Source: Actinomycetes bacterium | Lineage (GTDB): Bacteria; Actinomycetota; Acidimicrobiia; Acidimicrobiales; RAAP-2 | Assembly: GCA_021790675.1 (NCBI GenBank) | Contig: JAJYGN010000095.1 | Coordinates: 1-63,284 of the forward strand | Reading direction: 5' to 3' | Length of the DNA stretch: 63,284 bases | Shown here: positions 3,559-13,730 of the stretch, piece after piece | Layout of the letters: the number at the start of each line of letters is the position of its first letter | Position numbering within the stretch: position 1 is the first letter of the stretch | Translations under genes and position numbers: made by a program | Notes under the pieces: generated by a model | Databases searched by the model: none | Told to the model about the DNA's origin: nothing | Seen by the model: only the letters and a program-made list of their open reading frames with translations

Positions 3559-4863
3559 ATGATCGATCTCGCCCAACTGCGCCGTGAGCCGACCGTCGTC
3601 AAGGCCGCCCTGTTGCGCCGGGGCGTGCCCGCAGAGACGCTGGACGAGATCGTGGCCCTCGACGTCGAGCACCGCCAACTTCTCCAGGAGGCCGAGTCTC
3701 TGCGCGCCGAGGTGAAGACCCTCTCACGCGCGGTCGGCGAGGCGAAGCGCGCCGGCGACGCTGCGCGCGCCGACGAAGCCGCCGCGCGCAGCCGCGCGAT
3801 CGGCGACGCCGAGCGCGACGCGACCGCGCGCACCGAGACGGTCGCGGCCCGCTTGCGCGAGCTGCTGTTGTCCCTGCCCAACCTGCCCGCTCCGGAGGCG
3901 CCCGACGGCCTCGACGAGACGGGCAACGTCGAGCTGCGCCAGTGGTGGGTCGGCATGGACGAGGGGGCGCCCTTCCCCGACTACGCCGACTACCAGCGCG
4001 TGCCCCACTGGGAGGTGGGCGCTGCGCTCGGCATCCTCGACCTCGAGGCCGGCGCCAAGCTCGCCGGTTCGATGTTCCCGCTCTTTCGCGGCGACGGATC
4101 GCGCTTGATCCGCGCGCTGAGTGCCTTCGCGTTGGATCGCCACCGCGACGCCTACGAGGAGATCCGCCCGCCGACCTTCGCCCTGACCGAGACGATGATG
4201 TCGACCGGGCACCTGCCCAAGTCGATGGACGACATGTACGCGATCGAGCGCGACGGCCTCTGGGCGATCCCCACCGCCGAGGTGCCCCTCACGTCGATGC
4301 GTCGCGGTGAAATCCTCGACGCCTCCGAGCTGCCGATTCGCATGACTGCGCTGACCGCGTGCTTTCGCCGCGAGGCCGGTGCCGCGGGACGCGATACGCG
4401 CGGAGTGTTGCGAGTGCACGAGTTCGACAAGGTCGAGTTGTTCAACTACCTGCTGCCCGAGCAGGCTGACGAGGCCTTCGCCGACGTGCTCGCGCGCGCC
4501 GAGGGGCTGCTGCGAGCGCTCGGCCTGACCTATCGCGTGCTCGACCTGTGCGCGGGCGACCTGGGCACCTCCTCGGCGCGCACGTTCGACCTCGAGGTCT
4601 ACGCCCCGGGCGTCGAGCGCTGGCTCGAGGTCTCCTCGGTGAGCTGGTTCCGCGACTTCCAGGCGCGACGCGCCAACGTGCGCTATCGCACCGAGAGCGG
4701 CGAGACCGCCTTCGTGCACACGGTGAACGGCTCAGCTCTGGCCTGGCCGCGCATTTGGGCGGCCCTGATCGAGACCGGACGGCGCGCCGATGGCTCGGTC
4801 GAACTCCCCGAGGTCTTGGCGCCCTATCTCGGCGGCCAGCGCGTGATCACGGCGCGCGCGTAG
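3559..4863 (+). CDS. serS: Seryl-tRNA synthetase
   Basis: N-terminal coiled-coil arm (MIDLAQLRREPTVVKAALLRRG) and class II motifs (CFRREAGAAGRDTRGVLRVHEFDKVE). Confidence 0.97.
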   Translation: MIDLAQLRREPTVVKAALLRRGVPAETLDEIVALDVEHRQLLQEAESLRAEVKTLSRAVGEAKRAGDAARADEAAARSRAIGDAERDATARTETVAARLRELLLSLPNLPAPEAPDGLDETGNVELRQWWVGMDEGAPFPDYADYQRVPHWEVGAALGILDLEAGAKLAGSMFPLFRGDGSRLIRALSAFALDRHRDAYEEIRPPTFALTETMMSTGHLPKSMDDMYAIERDGLWAIPTAEVPLTSMRRGEILDASELPIRMTALTACFRREAGAAGRDTRGVLRVHEFDKVELFNYLLPEQADEAFADVLARAEGLLRALGLTYRVLDLCAGDLGTSSARTFDLEVYAPGVERWLEVSSVSWFRDFQARRANVRYRTESGETAFVHTVNGSALAWPRIWAALIETGRRADGSVELPEVLAPYLGGQRVITARA

Positions 4864-5578
4864 CGGACTCGAAGCGATACCCCACGCCGCGCACCGTGGT
4901 GATGTGTTCCGGATTCTTGGGGTCGTCCTCGACGAGGCTGCGCAGTCGCTTGATGTGCACGTCCAGGGTCTTGGTGTCGCCGACGTAGTCGTTGCCCCAG
5001 ACCCGGTCGATCAGGATCTCGCGCGTGAGGACCCGCCCGGGGTTCTCCAGAAGCAGGCGCAGCAGCGCGAACTCCTTCTTGCGCAGCTTTATCTCCTCGC
5101 CGCTGACGAAGCAGCGCCGCGCCTCGACGTCCATACGAATCGGCCCCTGCTCGATCAGCTCGTCGTCGGCGTCGGCGACGTCGTCATCGTGCGCTTCGCG
5201 GCGACGCACCACTGCACGGATGCGTGCGACGAGCTCGCGCAACCGGTAGGGCTTGGTCACGTAGTCGTCGGCGCCGAGCTCGAGCATCAGGACCATGTCG
5301 ACCTCCTCGCCCTTGGCCGAGACGATGATGATCGGCACGTCGCTCAGCGTCCGGATCGCGCGGCACACGTCCAGACCCGAGACCTTGGGCAGCATCAGGT
5401 CGAGCAGCACGATGTCGAAGCGCTTGGGCGCGAACTCGGCCAGCGCCTCGGCGCCGTCACGCGCGATCGTCACGTCGAAGCCCTCGCGGGCGAGGCCCAC
5501 CGTCAGGGCGTCGACGAAGGACTCCTCGTCCTCGACGACGAGGACTCGCGTGCGCGCCTCGTCGGACTTCTTGCTCAT
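4847..5578 (-). CDS. regX3: OmpR/PhoB-family response regulator, RegX3-like
   Basis: Receiver domain (VLVVEDEESFVDAL..DIVLLDLMLP) plus winged helix (VWGNDYVGDTKTLDVHIKRLRS). Confidence 0.85.
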   Translation of the reverse strand: MSKKSDEARTRVLVVEDEESFVDALTVGLAREGFDVTIARDGAEALAEFAPKRFDIVLLDLMLPKVSGLDVCRAIRTLSDVPIIIVSAKGEEVDMVLMLELGADDYVTKPYRLRELVARIRAVVRRREAHDDDVADADDELIEQGPIRMDVEARRCFVSGEEIKLRKKEFALLRLLLENPGRVLTREILIDRVWGNDYVGDTKTLDVHIKRLRSLVEDDPKNPEHITTVRGVGYRFESATRAP

Positions 5579-6870
5579 TGCGGGTTCATCGGCAGCTCGA
5601 GCGCGAAGGTCGAGCCCTCACCCTCGCGTGACTCGACGACGACATTGCCGCCGTGGTTGTGGGCGACATGGCGCACGATGGACAGTCCCAGTCCCGTGCC
5701 GCCGGTTTCGCGGGCGCGGCCCGGATCGACGCGATAGAAGCGCTCAAAGATCCGCTCCAGGTCCTTCGCCGGAATGCCCACTCCCTGGTCGGAGATGGCC
5801 ACGCGCGCTAGCGGACCGGGCGTGTCCACGTCGAGCGCGTCGGGGTCGACACGTTCGATCGACACTGTGACAGTTCCGCCGGGGGGCGAGTAGACAACAG
5901 CGTTCTCGAGCAGTGCGTGCACCGCCGAGACCAGCTGGCGACGGTCGCCGACGACGACCAGATTGCTTTCGGGCTCCTTGAACAGGATGGTCACCTGGTG
6001 CTGCTCGGCTGACATCTTGATCCGCTCGAGCGCCTCGGCCACGAAGAGCGCGACGGGCACCAGCTCGCGCGCCGGCGAGCCCTCGCTCTCGATGCGCGAG
6101 AGGTCGAGGAGGTCCTCGATGATGCGATTCACGCGAAAGGCCTCAGTGTTGATCCGCTCGGCGAGCCGGTTGGCGACCGCCGAGTCGCGCTCGTACTGCA
6201 GCGTCTCGGCCAGCAGGCCCAGGGCGCCCATGGGGGTCTTGAGCTCGTGCGAGACGTTGGCGATGAAGTCGCGGCGAATCTCCTCGAGGCGGCGGCGCTC
6301 GGACACGTCCTCGATAACGGCGAGCACGCCGAGGGGCCGGCGCCCGTCGTCGATGACGTTCGCGCGGATGGTGAGCGTGCGCCGCGGCGGCCCGTAGATA
6401 TCGATCGTGCGCTCGGCGGTTCCCTGGTTCCAGCCCTCGGCGAGGATGTCGGTCACCGCCTGGGCGGCGATGGCGTCGCCGTAGCGGCTCGCCATCAGCG
6501 CTTCAGCCTGGGAGTTGCGAAACAGGACCTCGCCGGACTCGTCGACCAGGACGAGTCCCAGGGGCAGCGCGTCCAGCGAGCGGCGAAGGCGCACCGATTC
6601 GGCGCTCGACTCGCCCACCGCGCTGGTCGCCGCGCTGGTGACCTCTTCGAGGTAGGCCAGCGCCGACTCGACCCGGCCGTCGTCGCGGCTGGGCTCCACG
6701 CCGAGGCGGGTGCCGAGCGCGGTGAGGCGCTGGGCGATGGCGCGGTGGTCGCGTCGTCGGATGTAGAGGAAGCCGATCAGGGCGCCCAGGATGGCCACAC
6801 CCGCGGTGGCGAGGTAGAGCGCGAGGGGGGACCACTGGGAGACCACGTTGTGGACGGCGTCGAGGAGCAC
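5575..6870 (-). CDS. senX3: PAS-containing sensor histidine kinase, SenX3-like
   Basis: TM N-terminus, PAS (LDALPLGLVLVDESGEVLFRN), HisKA (FIANVSHELKTPMGAL), HATPase (GGTGLGLSIVRHV); 4-nt overlap with the regulator gene. Confidence 0.85.
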   Translation of the reverse strand: MLLDAVHNVVSQWSPLALYLATAGVAILGALIGFLYIRRRDHRAIAQRLTALGTRLGVEPSRDDGRVESALAYLEEVTSAATSAVGESSAESVRLRRSLDALPLGLVLVDESGEVLFRNSQAEALMASRYGDAIAAQAVTDILAEGWNQGTAERTIDIYGPPRRTLTIRANVIDDGRRPLGVLAVIEDVSERRRLEEIRRDFIANVSHELKTPMGALGLLAETLQYERDSAVANRLAERINTEAFRVNRIIEDLLDLSRIESEGSPARELVPVALFVAEALERIKMSAEQHQVTILFKEPESNLVVVGDRRQLVSAVHALLENAVVYSPPGGTVTVSIERVDPDALDVDTPGPLARVAISDQGVGIPAKDLERIFERFYRVDPGRARETGGTGLGLSIVRHVAHNHGGNVVVESREGEGSTFALELPMNPQ

Positions 6871-6944
6871 GAGAACAGTCTCGCAGACCCGTGCACTTCA
6901 GTGGGGGTAGCGACCGTTGCGAGTCCCCGATTGAAAGGTCGCCC

Positions 6945-7229
6945 ATGCTCCTCGCCTCTGTTAGCCTCAATCCCTCCGTCAACGCCCTGCCAGGCGGAGC
7001 GGCCCTCCAGTCGCTCGCCAACGGCATCGCCGGCTGGGCCCTCGTGGCCAGCCTGGTGGCCCTGGTGCTCGGTGCGGGCCTCTGGGCGCTCGGCAGCCAC
7101 TCGCAGAACTACCACCAGTCCGCGGCGGGCCGGCGCGCGGTGATGACCTCGCTGCTGGCTGCGATCCTGATCGGCGCCGCACCATATCTGATCAACTTCT
7201 TCTTCAAGACCGGCCTCGCGGTGCACTGA
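6945..7229 (+). CDS. DUF6112-like small two-TM protein, candidate VirB2/TrbC-type pilin of a T4SS-like system
   Basis: WALGSHSQNYHQSAAGRRAV...LIGAAPYLINFFFKTG resembles the DUF6112 proteins of actinobacterial conjugation clusters; first gene of a coupled cluster. Confidence 0.7.
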   Translation: MLLASVSLNPSVNALPGGAALQSLANGIAGWALVASLVALVLGAGLWALGSHSQNYHQSAAGRRAVMTSLLAAILIGAAPYLINFFFKTGLAVH

Positions 7230-8332
7230 TGGGACTTGGATGCCTGCTCGAACCGGGGACGTGCGCGGCCGGTCTGCTCACCCACGCCACGCTGGGCGAC
7301 CTGTTCAACGCGTTGACGAACTGGGTGGTGGGGAGCGTGCACTGGATCCTTACCTCCGCCGGCGGGGTGCTCGCGACCACGACCGATCCCGCGACCGTGA
7401 CGACCTCAGTCGCCCCGCTCTATGCGACGCTCACCACGCTGTCGCCGATCCTGATGCTGATGGGACTGATGGTCGCGACGCTCTCGGCGCTGCGCCACGG
7501 TGACGCGGGCTCGCTGTGGCGCGCCTACCTCGGAGTGGCGCCAGCGAGCGTCGCGGCCATCGCGTTGGCCCGCCCCATCGCCGGTGCGATCTTGCGTGGG
7601 GTGAACGACCTCTCGAGCACCGCGTCGGCGACGGTCCTCGTCCACGAAGGGCTCCTCGCAGACGACCTGCGCAACCTGGTGGGCACGATTCCCGGCTTCG
7701 GCCTCTTCCTGCTCGCGATCGCGGTGGTGGTGGGGTCGTGGTTCCTCTGGTGCGAGCTGGTGGTGCGCGTGGTCGTCCTGTCGCTGGTGCTCGTGCTCGT
7801 GCCCGTGGTCGCGGCGCTGGCCACGTTCCCCTCGTTGCGCCGCGCCGCCTGGCGCCTCGCCGAGACCTTCGTCGCAGTGGCGGCCAGCAAGTTCCTCATC
7901 GTCATCGCCCTCGTCCTGGGACTCGACGAGCTCACGGGGACCTCGACGACGCGCGTCGTGGCCGGGGCGGTCACCCTGGCCCTCGCGGCCCTGACTCCGT
8001 TCGCGTTGTTGCGCGTGGTGCCGATCATCGAACAGTCGGCCCTGCACCACCTCGACGGGGTCCGCCAGCGCGCCACGCGCGGCACCCGCCAGGCGGCGCA
8101 GGGTGTCGCGCGAGCGGGAGCGATGGTCGCGCCCGAGGCGGTGCCCACGCCACCCGAGACGCCCGAGGACCTGGGATTTGGCCTGTGGGAAGGCGACGGC
8201 GAGGTCACCCTGGCGCCGCCCTACGAGGGGCCGGTCAAGGCGCCCGTGGGCGAGCCCCAGCGTCGTGGAGGCCACGTCGCCTACACCTCGGATCACATGG
8301 GCCCCGTCGTCACGTGGCACTTCGATGAGTGA
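7229..8332 (+). CDS. TrbL/VirB6-like (SCO6881-like) polytopic membrane protein
   Basis: 6-8 predicted TM helices; soluble C-terminal tail; start ATG overlaps the previous stop codon. Confidence 0.65.
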   Translation: MGLGCLLEPGTCAAGLLTHATLGDLFNALTNWVVGSVHWILTSAGGVLATTTDPATVTTSVAPLYATLTTLSPILMLMGLMVATLSALRHGDAGSLWRAYLGVAPASVAAIALARPIAGAILRGVNDLSSTASATVLVHEGLLADDLRNLVGTIPGFGLFLLAIAVVVGSWFLWCELVVRVVVLSLVLVLVPVVAALATFPSLRRAAWRLAETFVAVAASKFLIVIALVLGLDELTGTSTTRVVAGAVTLALAALTPFALLRVVPIIEQSALHHLDGVRQRATRGTRQAAQGVARAGAMVAPEAVPTPPETPEDLGFGLWEGDGEVTLAPPYEGPVKAPVGEPQRRGGHVAYTSDHMGPVVTWHFDE

Positions 8333-9371
8333 GGGCGTGCGCCTCGGCGACGCCGACGCCCCCGCGCGAATCCTCGGCCTCGACCGGCTCCAGTTGGTGT
8401 TGCTCGCCTTCGGCGCAGCGGTGCTCGCCGACGCGCTGGTGCGCGTGCACCTCGTGGTCCTGGTGGGTCTGGGCGTCGCGCTGCTCGCCGCGGCGCTGCC
8501 CGCGGGCGAGCGGGTGAGCGTCGCCGAGCGGCTGGGGCTCGCTCTCGCCTACGCGGCACGGCCCCACGTCACCTCGGTCGTAGTCGAGCGCGGCGATCCG
8601 TGCGTCGTTCACGCGCTCGCGAGTGCGACCACGCGCGGTTACGCGCTGCGTCACCGGGGACGGCTTGATCTCAGCGGGGCCGACCTCGATGTGGCGCGGC
8701 GCGTGGCCCAGAGCCTCGACGCCCTCGCGACGGCTCCAAGCGGTCGTCACGCGTCGCTGCACGTCGTACGCGACGGCGACGACATCGCCACGCTCTTGTG
8801 CCTCGGCGGACGCCCTCCCGAGGGGTGGACCCGCGACGATGCCTTGCTCGCGCGCGTTAGCGGGGTGGGTCTGGCCGATCACCTCTGGCTCTTGGAGCGC
8901 CTGAGTTACCTACGCACCACCGATGGGGTCTGCCGCGTGCTGCGGGTGCGCGACTACTCGGCTGCGACCGTGCCACTGCTCGCCGGCCTGCAGCGTCGTC
9001 GCGCGACGACGACCGTGTCGCTGCACCTCGACGTGTTAGACGACGCCCGCGCGCGTCGACGGGTCGAACGACTGAGCCACGCTGCGACGAGCAACTGGGC
9101 GGCCGCCAGTTCGTGGGGCTTTCGCGAGACGTCGCGGGCGCGACGGCGCGTGGCGCGCACGCTCGAGCGCGAGGCGCACGTCGCCGAGGGACGCGCCCTG
9201 GTGCGTCTCGCGGTTTTCGTCACGGTGCGGGCCACGCGCCTTGAGGATCTCGACGACGCGGTGGCGGGGACTCTGCGCGCGGCGCGCGAGTGCGGACTCG
9301 TGCTCGATCGCGGCCTGGGCCGTCAGGCCCGCTGGTACTGCCAGTCCCTTCCCGGAGGTCCTGGCTGGTGA
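8325..9371 (+). CDS. SCO6880/PrgI-domain-like T4SS protein (VirB4 N-terminal-like)
   Basis: N-terminal membrane hairpin followed by an alpha/beta region; ATGAGTGA overlap with the upstream gene and GTGA overlap with the ATPase gene. Confidence 0.6.
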   Translation: MSEGVRLGDADAPARILGLDRLQLVLLAFGAAVLADALVRVHLVVLVGLGVALLAAALPAGERVSVAERLGLALAYAARPHVTSVVVERGDPCVVHALASATTRGYALRHRGRLDLSGADLDVARRVAQSLDALATAPSGRHASLHVVRDGDDIATLLCLGGRPPEGWTRDDALLARVSGVGLADHLWLLERLSYLRTTDGVCRVLRVRDYSAATVPLLAGLQRRRATTTVSLHLDVLDDARARRRVERLSHAATSNWAAASSWGFRETSRARRRVARTLEREAHVAEGRALVRLAVFVTVRATRLEDLDDAVAGTLRAARECGLVLDRGLGRQARWYCQSLPGGPGW

Positions 9372-10519
9372 GGGCGTGGACGCACCTGGCCACGTCCGAG
9401 GACGTGCTCGACCTGCGCCTGCCGGCCCACGACGCGGGCACGGGCCTCGTCGGGCGGCCTCTCGGCGACTGCCTGGGCGGCGGCGAGTTCGTCTACGAGC
9501 CCTTCGACGCCTACGGTGCGGGTTTGGTCGCCAACCCGAACCTCCTCGTGGCCGGCTCGATCGGCGCGGGCAAGTCGACGCTCGTCAAGATGGTGATCGA
9601 TCGGGGTCTCGCGCGCGGTCGCGGGGTCGTGGTAGTCGATCCCAAGGGCGAGTACGGGGCGCTCGCCGCCTCCTACGGCGTGACGCCCCTCGTGCTGGGC
9701 CGCGACGGGTGGTGCGATCCGTTCGAGGACGACAGCCGCGCCCGCGACCTCGTGCGAGCCGTGCTCGCGAGCGCGGCCGGCGGACTCTCCGACGAACTGC
9801 ACTTCGCCCTTGACGAGACCTGGAGGAGGCTCGGCGCGCGGCGGCCGCGACGGCTGCTCGCAGCGCTGCACGAGCGCTTGGCGAGCGACCTGCGCGGGCC
9901 CGCGGGGCCTCGTCGCTCGCTTGCTCTCATCGTGCGCCGCTTCGTCGAGGGCGACCTCGCGGGGCTGTTCGACGGCGAAGGGCCGGCGCTGTCGCTCGAG
10001 GGTGATCTGGTCGTGCTCGATCTCAGCGCGCAGTGGTCGGGTGACTCGCTCGCGGTGGCTGCGCTTTCGGCGGCGGCGGCCGGTGCGAACCTGGCCCGCC
10101 CCGATCGTCCGGGATATCTCGTCCTTGACGAGGCGTGGGTCCTGCTGAGCGATCCGGCGTCGCTGCGCTGGCTGCGCGGATCCTGGAAGCTGGCGCGATC
10201 GCGCGGGATCAGCCACGTGCTCGTCCTGCACCGCTTCAGCGACGTGGGCGCGACCGGCGATGCCGGCAGTGCGACGCGCGCGAGCGCCCTGGGACTGCTG
10301 CGCGAGTGCGAGACGACGTGGCTCTTTCGCCAAGGCGCCGACGAGGCCCGCGAGATCGCCGCGGCCCTCTCGTTGCACCCGAACGAGTCGCGTTACCTCG
10401 TCGCGCTGCCGCGCGGGGCCGCCCTCGTGCGCTACGGCGCGTTTCGCTCGGTCGTGCGGATCGTCCCCGACGCGCGCGACGCGCGCTTCATCGACACCGA
10501 TTCGGCGATGCGAGGGTGA
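9368..10519 (+). CDS. VirB4-like ATPase
   Basis: Walker A AGSIGAGKST, VVVDPKGEYG, Walker B YLVLDEAWVLL; GTG start overlapping the upstream TGA. Confidence 0.85.
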   Translation: MRAWTHLATSEDVLDLRLPAHDAGTGLVGRPLGDCLGGGEFVYEPFDAYGAGLVANPNLLVAGSIGAGKSTLVKMVIDRGLARGRGVVVVDPKGEYGALAASYGVTPLVLGRDGWCDPFEDDSRARDLVRAVLASAAGGLSDELHFALDETWRRLGARRPRRLLAALHERLASDLRGPAGPRRSLALIVRRFVEGDLAGLFDGEGPALSLEGDLVVLDLSAQWSGDSLAVAALSAAAAGANLARPDRPGYLVLDEAWVLLSDPASLRWLRGSWKLARSRGISHVLVLHRFSDVGATGDAGSATRASALGLLRECETTWLFRQGADEAREIAAALSLHPNESRYLVALPRGAALVRYGAFRSVVRIVPDARDARFIDTDSAMRG

Positions 10520-11679
10520 ACGACCGCCTGGTCCTCGGGAAGCGCACGTTGCGCGGCGTCGCCCTGGGTCCGCGGCTGCGCTTGGGCGAGCGCAGCTCGC
10601 TGCTAGTGGTGGGACCTACCCAGGTGGGCAAGACCTCCTCGCTGGTGGTGCCGGCGATTCTCTCGTGGAGTGATGCGCTGGTGGTCACCAGTGTCAAGTC
10701 CGACGTCGTCGAGGTGACGCGGCGCTGGCGTGGCGCGCTCGGCGCGGTCCAGGTCCTCGAGCCGGGGCGTGACGGCGGGCTCACCTGGGATCCGCTCGAG
10801 CGGGTTGAGTCGCTGCGCCACGCGCTGCGCGTGGCGCATGAGTTGACCAGCCGTGCGAGCCCTCACGCGGACTCCGAATTCTGGAACGCGCTCGCCACCA
10901 AGTTGGTGGCCGCCCTGTTCGTGATCGCGCGACAGAGCCGACGCAGCGTCTTTGACGTCGCGCGGGTCCTCGATACACGCGCCTTCGACGAGTGGCTCAC
11001 CCGTGCGAGCGAGGCCGCGGATCTCCTGCGAGGGTTTCTCGAGCACGACGCCAAGACGGTCGACGGCGTGATCACGACGGCCGAGACCATGCTGCTGGCC
11101 TGGCGCTTCGCTCAGCCCCTCGCCCGCGTACGCGACGTCGTCCACGGACCGCACACCCTCTATCTCGTCAGCCCGCGTGGCGAGCAACGTCACTACGAGT
11201 CGCTCTTTCGCGGGGCGCTGCGCGCGGTGCTCGAAGAGCAGCAGCGACTCGTCGACGCCGGCAGCGCCCGACCGTTGCTGCTCGTGCTCGACGAGGCGGC
11301 CACCGTCGCGCCCCTCGATGACCTCGACGAGCTGGCGGCGACGCTGGCGGGGCTCTCGGTCACGCTGGTGACCGTGGTCCAGGACTTCGCGCAGCTGAAC
11401 GCCCGTTGGGGCAAGCGCGCGGCGACCATCGTGAACAACCACACGACGCGTCTCGTCCTGGGCGGTCTGGCCGATCCGGCGGTCGCCACCTTCCTGCCCG
11501 AGGCGGCGGGTTCCAGCGAGGCGCCACTTCGGCGGCTCTCGCCGGGGACGGGTCTCGTCGTGTCGCGCTCGGCGCCGGTCGCGCCGGTTCGCCTGGTGCC
11601 GTGGTGGCGCCAGCGACACCTTCGTCATCGTGGTCGCCGCGACGTCGCTACGATTCGCTGGTGGAATCGACGCACCTGA
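10516..11679 (+). CDS. VirD4/TraG-like coupling ATPase
   Basis: Walker A VVGPTQVGKTSSLVVPAIL, VVTSVKSDVVEVT, Walker B LLVLDEAATVAPL; GTG start with 4-nt overlap. Confidence 0.85.
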   Translation: MNDRLVLGKRTLRGVALGPRLRLGERSSLLVVGPTQVGKTSSLVVPAILSWSDALVVTSVKSDVVEVTRRWRGALGAVQVLEPGRDGGLTWDPLERVESLRHALRVAHELTSRASPHADSEFWNALATKLVAALFVIARQSRRSVFDVARVLDTRAFDEWLTRASEAADLLRGFLEHDAKTVDGVITTAETMLLAWRFAQPLARVRDVVHGPHTLYLVSPRGEQRHYESLFRGALRAVLEEQQRLVDAGSARPLLLVLDEAATVAPLDDLDELAATLAGLSVTLVTVVQDFAQLNARWGKRAATIVNNHTTRLVLGGLADPAVATFLPEAAGSSEAPLRRLSPGTGLVVSRSAPVAPVRLVPWWRQRHLRHRGRRDVATIRWWNRRT

Positions 11680-13656: not shown

Positions 13657-13730
13657 GCGGCTGTAGCTCAGCGGATTAGAGCATCGGTCTACGGAACCGA
13701 GGGTCGGGGGTTCGAATCCCTCCAGCCGCA
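13657..13730 (+). tRNA. tRNA-Arg(ACG)
   Basis: Cloverleaf by eye: GCGGCTG/CAGCCGC acceptor, TCGGT-CTACGGA-ACCGA anticodon arm (ACG), GGGGG-TTCGAAT-CCCTC T arm. Confidence 0.95.

Follow-up and report, generated by a model that had tools for sequence, protein, structure and literature searches.

What does a set of type IV secretion system (T4SS) genes do in an actinobacterial chromosome when neither a relaxase nor an integrase gene lies beside it? The question is raised by contig JAJYGN010000095.1 of the Actinomycetes bacterium assembly GCA_021790675.1 (Acidimicrobiales), whose whole stretch of 63,284 nucleotides was analysed and is hereafter called the window. Five plus-strand genes at 6945 to 11679 (g1 to g5, together locus A) had been read in an earlier note as encoding a DUF6112-like protein, a TrbL/VirB6-like protein, an SCO6880-like protein and two ATPases of the VirB4 and VirD4 types. 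Both the coordinates and the overlaps of 1-8 nt given there were correct: g1 and g2 share 1 nt, g2 and g3 share 8 nt, and a GTGA forms an overlap of 4 nt at g3/g4 and again at g4/g5. The evidence presented below strongly supports locus A as a fixed, vertically inherited chromosomal trait of one large branch of the Acidimicrobiales. From sequence comparisons it is read, with a probability of about 0.5, as belonging to a relaxase-equipped, vertically inherited T4SS of the monoderm type that would exchange host chromosomal DNA.

Distribution and inheritance of locus A

The distribution of the system was determined in 198 genomes of Acidimicrobiales, most of them metagenome-assembled genomes, with thresholds of >100 bits for DUF6112 and >380 bits for VirD4_B (the VirD4 protein of a second locus, locus B) that were set by us at the gap in the score lists. 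A DUF6112 protein of the locus A type was found in 59 of the 198 genomes and VirD4_B in 58; locus A and VirD4_B occurred together in 56 genomes and one without the other in five (Fisher p ~5e-43). Positive genomes made up 61 of the 62 belonging to 19 families, and none of the 136 genomes in the other 42 families was positive. The sole negative genome within the positive families (G141) is 81% complete and holds fragments. On a phylogeny built for 72 genomes from 12 ribosomal proteins, the T4SS label required two changes, as compared with 22.9 changes when the labels were shuffled; this comparison with ribosomal proteins had been proposed earlier as a check on vertical inheritance. A single origin of the system in the order is likely on this basis, and is not proven because the deepest split of the ribosomal tree is weakly supported. 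Across all genomes, the distances of VirB4, VirD4_A (the product of g5), VirD4_B, the TrwC relaxase of locus B, SenX3 and RegX3 were correlated (r 0.65-0.88, p 0.0005). This co-divergence, computed for VirB4 from the ATPase half only, extended to unlinked loci (VirB4 with VirD4_B, r 0.77; TrwC with regX3, r 0.87; p 0.0005).

The chromosomal position of locus A is likewise conserved. When 85,462 species genomes were scanned, 169 relatives came to light, and 80 of the 169 loci were examined. The restriction to Acidimicrobiia rests on the record titles of these 80 loci, nearly all of which name Acidimicrobiia or Actinobacteria, with two titled Acidobacteria/Acidobacteriota. Among the 80 loci, 72 extend far enough upstream to be judged, and in 69 of these a divergent senX3 gene adjoined the DUF6112 gene. 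Of 57 loci, VirB4 followed at 56 and VirD4 at 52. A relaxase gene was present at none (0/80). In five congeners, and in another genus of this family, the block is flanked by senX3-regX3-serS on one side and, on contigs that extend so far, by a ROK gene on the other; in more distant families it is still found beside senX3-regX3. The isolate Ferrithrix thermotolerans (Acidimicrobiales, by record title) is among the carriers with a senX3-regX3-linked block. For the window compared with its nearest relative, the ratio of nonsynonymous to synonymous substitution rates (dN/dS) of the five genes was 0.03-0.15, as in neighbouring genes, and the five genes are therefore under purifying selection. The description of locus A in the earlier note as a domesticated, vertically inherited T4SS-like machine is thus strongly supported by the order-wide synteny (a check named there; senX3-regX3 adjoins the block in 69/72 testable loci), by the all-or-none distribution among families, by the confinement to one region of the tree, by co-divergence and by dN/dS.

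In the window, the regX3-senX3 pair occupies 4847 to 6870 on the minus strand; it is the divergent neighbour that marks the locus throughout the order and belongs to its context, outside the machine. Downstream of g5, the ROK gene starts at 11661, and a tRNA-Arg gene at 13657 lies outside the block, in an equivalent position in relatives. No att-like repeats flanking the block were found, and no integrase was found at the locus among the genes examined.

Several distant loci depart from the usual arrangement. Four of them (L142, L144, L152 and L097) keep DUF6112, VirB6 and the N-terminal part of VirB4 beside senX3, and downstream the VirD4 gene is absent, as is the ATPase part of VirB4 wholly or for the most part, through loss, relocation or assembly. 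In another (L154:12446-14241) virB4 is cut to ~71 codons and is followed by a large serine recombinase with Resolvase and Recombinase domains; apparently an element has inserted itself into this gene.

These variant loci, and a gene order resembling the transfer modules of actinobacterial integrative and conjugative elements (ICEs), would suit locus A being the remnant of an ICE that happens to adjoin senX3. That origin is highly improbable, and was rejected, given the distribution (61/62 genomes against 0/136), the two changes on the ribosomal tree, the constant flanks, the lack of att repeats, the intact motifs and the selection acting on the genes.

A relaxase and a second coupling ATPase at a second locus

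Locus A had been described as a locus without mobilisation genes. The absence of a relaxase holds for the 63-kb window and not for the genome, in which contig C41 carries a TrwC/MOBF relaxase gene; at the level of the genome the description was wrong, since another chromosomal locus holds the relaxase together with a second VirD4, both of them co-inherited. In this locus B, the VirD4_B gene is convergent with the gene for the 354-residue relaxase, which matches PF08751 (E 3.9e-22). Locus B lies near moaC and a gene for a protein with two WYL domains, and by our reading of the neighbours its flanks are tldD/tldE and cofC-like genes. A profile of 14 relaxase orthologues matched TrwC (1omh) at 4.5e-50, and in this alignment the catalytic Tyr and the His motif coincide. 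All 14 orthologues share the His residues, and a P-x-LH-x-H motif is present in 52 of 54 relaxases. Judged from these alignments, the active site, with its Tyr and three His, is intact-looking.

All seven genomes of the window's family, and some of other families, have this arrangement of VirD4_B and relaxase genes. TrwC was found in 59 of 61 T4SS-positive genomes versus 42 of 137 others. A quick tree of 54 relaxases, in which the branches of the window's family are long, separated the T4SS-positive set from the T4SS-negative set by two changes, whether or not the relaxase gene was adjacent to VirD4_B.

A role in protein secretion or in contact-dependent action (effectors, competition or epibiosis), of the kind suggested for Patescibacteria, was also considered; the relaxase would then be functionally unrelated. 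The T4SS of Patescibacteria is a fitting precedent, being chromosomal, clade-wide in a large group and of the monoderm type, with VirB4 and VirB2-like pilins and mostly without a relaxase (PMC12102498), and in the present loci too the relaxase never occurs within locus A. In the studied Patescibacteria comEC is present, whereas the Acidimicrobiales system has a near-universal relaxase and no comEC. The TrwC-type relaxase in almost every T4SS-positive genome, with a phylogenetic group of its own, and the second VirD4 beside it both argue against protein secretion, which is therefore regarded as quite improbable.

Two further genes of locus B were noted. Beside VirD4_B, and kept across the family, is a gene for a histone H1-like protein rich in lysine and alanine (HC2-like, slightly under the cut-off; G000:C41 and L033:11243-11533), possibly a DNA-binding partner. 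The gene for the two-WYL-domain regulator (L033:6679-8607) ends 26 nt before the relaxase gene, an arrangement that we read as PafBC-like and that possibly points to a link with DNA damage.

A short element, GCGACCGTTGCG, is found at 6910 to 6921 on the plus strand, upstream of g1, and this site of the CGACCNTTG type has a counterpart upstream of the distant relaxase gene. Elements of the CGACC-N-TTG type (CGACCNTTG) lie 15-38 nt upstream of both g1 and trwC in 6/6 genomes of the genus, the one in L037 ending in TTA; among control gene starts the frequency is 0-3%. Counted across the genome, the strict form occurs 11 times and the reversed pattern three times. Further sites precede integrase, resolvase/recombinase, HicA-like, DnaB and housekeeping genes, and a regulon private to loci A and B was rejected on this account. 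The element is thus a wider promoter-like one that links the two loci without being private to them; it is treated as a lead because it was spotted after looking. A PHO/RegX3-like box was sought upstream of the DUF6112 gene in the window and was not found.

Component proteins of locus A

The first gene, g1 (6945 to 7229, plus strand, 94 residues), encodes a DUF6112 protein with two transmembrane segments that is a candidate VirB2-like pilin. It matches PF19607 (E 1.6e-7), has transmembrane peaks at residues 28 and 65 and is the most highly conserved of the five proteins. Ten of 23 DUF6112 orthologues also match TrbC/VirB2 pilin (best 2.3e-5) or T4SS_pilin (best 2.3e-4); a fold search with DUF6112 returned no informative match. 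The second, g2 (7229 to 8332, plus strand, 367 residues), encodes a putative VirB6/TrbL-like polytopic membrane protein with five hydrophobic peaks and has an equivalent place in relatives. Profile searches gave no significant family match for g2. Its AlphaFold model is of low confidence (pLDDT 69.5), and the top Foldseek matches to this model include, weakly, TrwI/VirB6 of R388 (7o3v; E 0.027, probability 0.99). The resemblance to VirB6 is suggestive only.

The next two genes encode the parts of a split protein. The product of g3 (8325 to 9371, plus strand, 348 residues) is SCO6880-like, with two N-terminal transmembrane segments, and corresponds to the N-terminal part of a split VirB4. Its match to the SCO6880 family NF042935 (E 3.9e-15, score 55.8) falls just below the curated cut-off of 60, which a distant orthologue clears (2.9e-49). 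The ATPase part of VirB4 is encoded by g4 (9368 to 10519, plus strand, 383 residues), with Walker A GSIGAGKS and DEAW motifs and a match to AAA_10 (E 2.1e-7). The profile of g4 orthologues (A4) matched the solved VirB4 4ag5 at 1.4e-31 and TrwK at 9.7e-6; Walker A is present in 23/23 genomes and DEAW in 22/23. Because g3 and g4 are fused as a single 733-residue protein in the congener L035 (and separate in other families, as in the window), they are regarded as two parts of one VirB4, and the five genes amount to four components.

The last gene, g5 (10516 to 11679, plus strand, 387 residues), encodes the VirD4-type coupling ATPase VirD4_A, which matches PF02534 (VirD4; 2.9e-26) and TraG-D_C (1.2e-16). 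The profile of its orthologues (A3) matched Cag5 at 5.8e-11 and TrwB at 4.6e-7. In most measurable genomes, both VirD4_A and VirD4_B start 20-70 residues before Walker A, with no transmembrane segment there. Insofar as protein classes had been claimed for the five genes, the profile searches agree for g1, g3, g4 and g5, and the grouping of the ATPases with VirB4 and VirD4, set beforehand as a test, was upheld by the matches to 4ag5, TrwB and Cag5.

ComEC and the proposed function

ComEC was found in 0/62 genomes of the T4SS-positive families versus 115/136 T4SS-negative genomes (p 1e-33). The T4SS-positive genomes without it include one that consists of a single contig (G032). ComEC is also absent from G036, the only T4SS-negative genome that falls among the positive ones in the tree. 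DprA is kept in 42 of the 62 T4SS-positive genomes and is missing in 20, among them those of the window's family.

In the proposed mechanism, locus A would be the membrane and motor part, in which DUF6112 would serve as a pilin or a channel subunit, the g2 product as the VirB6 pore, g3 and g4 as VirB4 and g5 as coupling ATPase, and locus B would supply the TrwC/MOBF relaxase and the second coupling ATPase. The relaxase would nick host DNA, a coupling protein would dock the relaxase-bound strand, and the complex of VirB4, VirB6 and pilin would pass the strand to a neighbouring cell. Host chromosomal DNA would in this way be shared without a plasmid or ICE, and the system may have taken over in lineages that lack ComEC-based uptake, or have been left as the sole one there. 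In conjugation, relaxases and coupling proteins work on the donor side, and for this reason export of host DNA is the best reading. We infer DNA as the substrate, export as the direction and the cooperation of loci A and B in one machine. That the branch gave up or never had ComEC transformation, and that a core conjugation system of relaxase, two coupling proteins and two loci moves host DNA as a host trait, is given slightly less than even odds. Protein export, DNA export and DNA import had been left equally open in the earlier note; DNA transfer is now favoured by the relaxase and the absence of ComEC, and is not proven.

The absence of ComEC from every T4SS-positive family would also suit a tamed DNA-import machine, in the manner of Ced/Ted or of Helicobacter ComB, that takes in single-stranded DNA in place of ComEC, with the relaxase otherwise employed, for example in plasmid processing. 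Archaeal Ced and Ted are chromosomal, tamed T4SSs with VirB2-, VirB6- and VirB4-like parts that are used or proposed for cellular DNA exchange (PMC9905601); chromosomal, vertically inherited T4SS parts of this kind, with a comparable gene set (candidate pilin, putative VirB6, and VirB4), occur in the Acidimicrobiales, and DprA is kept in most of the positive genomes. However, DprA is missing in the rest, and the archaea have no recognisable relaxase (PMC9905601), whereas the two VirD4 proteins and the co-inherited MOBF relaxase of the Acidimicrobiales point to donor-side DNA processing. ComB, in which T4SS parts are likewise kept on the chromosome for DNA exchange, is listed among systems without VirD4 and still needs ComEC (PMC12857230), unlike the present system with its relaxase and two VirD4 proteins and without ComEC. 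Import is accordingly considered unlikely, although it is the chief rival to export, ahead of protein secretion.

Several observations weigh against a conjugation-like exchange of host DNA. The relaxase gene lies within 6 kb of VirD4_B in only 21/58 genomes and otherwise on another contig or far off, so that the remainder are paired by presence and phylogeny. Relaxases of the window's family are short (330-390 residues), have no helicase and sit on a long branch, having lost a C-terminal part that is present in other families. Within the genus, no origin of transfer could be assigned in the sequences between the genes of locus B, and no VirB8- or VirB1-like parts, as known from Gram-positive systems, were recognised in the block or in neighbouring genes, no genome-wide search having been made. 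DUF6112 is too short for clear co-divergence outside its own family. The contrast in ComEC is at the level of the clade, represents roughly one evolutionary event and could be coincidence. Some T4SS-negative families (f25, f26, f36 and f46) are also without ComEC, and ComEC loss is therefore not tied to the T4SS alone. The wider occurrence of the upstream element shared by g1 and trwC counts on the same side.

Relation to mobile elements and significance

Conjugation machines are assumed to work for the plasmids or ICEs that encode them. In Actinomycetota, ICEs of the T4SS type have been sought by VirB4, VirD4, MOBF relaxase and integrase (PMC3218068). Such ICEs and plasmids (PMC3218068; for a plasmid, NZ_CP050949.1 of Iamia, whose VirD4 is 31% identical) share the same VirB4, VirD4 and MOBF relaxase families with the system described here. 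They are mobile and hold integrase and relaxase together, whereas in the Acidimicrobiales the machine lies at one fixed locus and the relaxase at another, neither with an integrase. In 2023 the authors of the work on Ced were not aware of a comparable domestication for transferring DNA outside the archaea (PMC9905601), and in the open literature searched on T4SS in Acidimicrobiia no account of this system was found.

Such a system would carry a warning for the annotation of these genomes, in that matches to VirB4, VirD4 and relaxase alone would be no evidence of mobile elements. A cultured carrier exists, by record name, in Ferrithrix thermotolerans. If the proposed reading is true, about one third of the sampled genomes of the order would hold a relaxase-equipped T4SS replacing ComEC transformation, and host-controlled bacterial conjugation would become directly testable.

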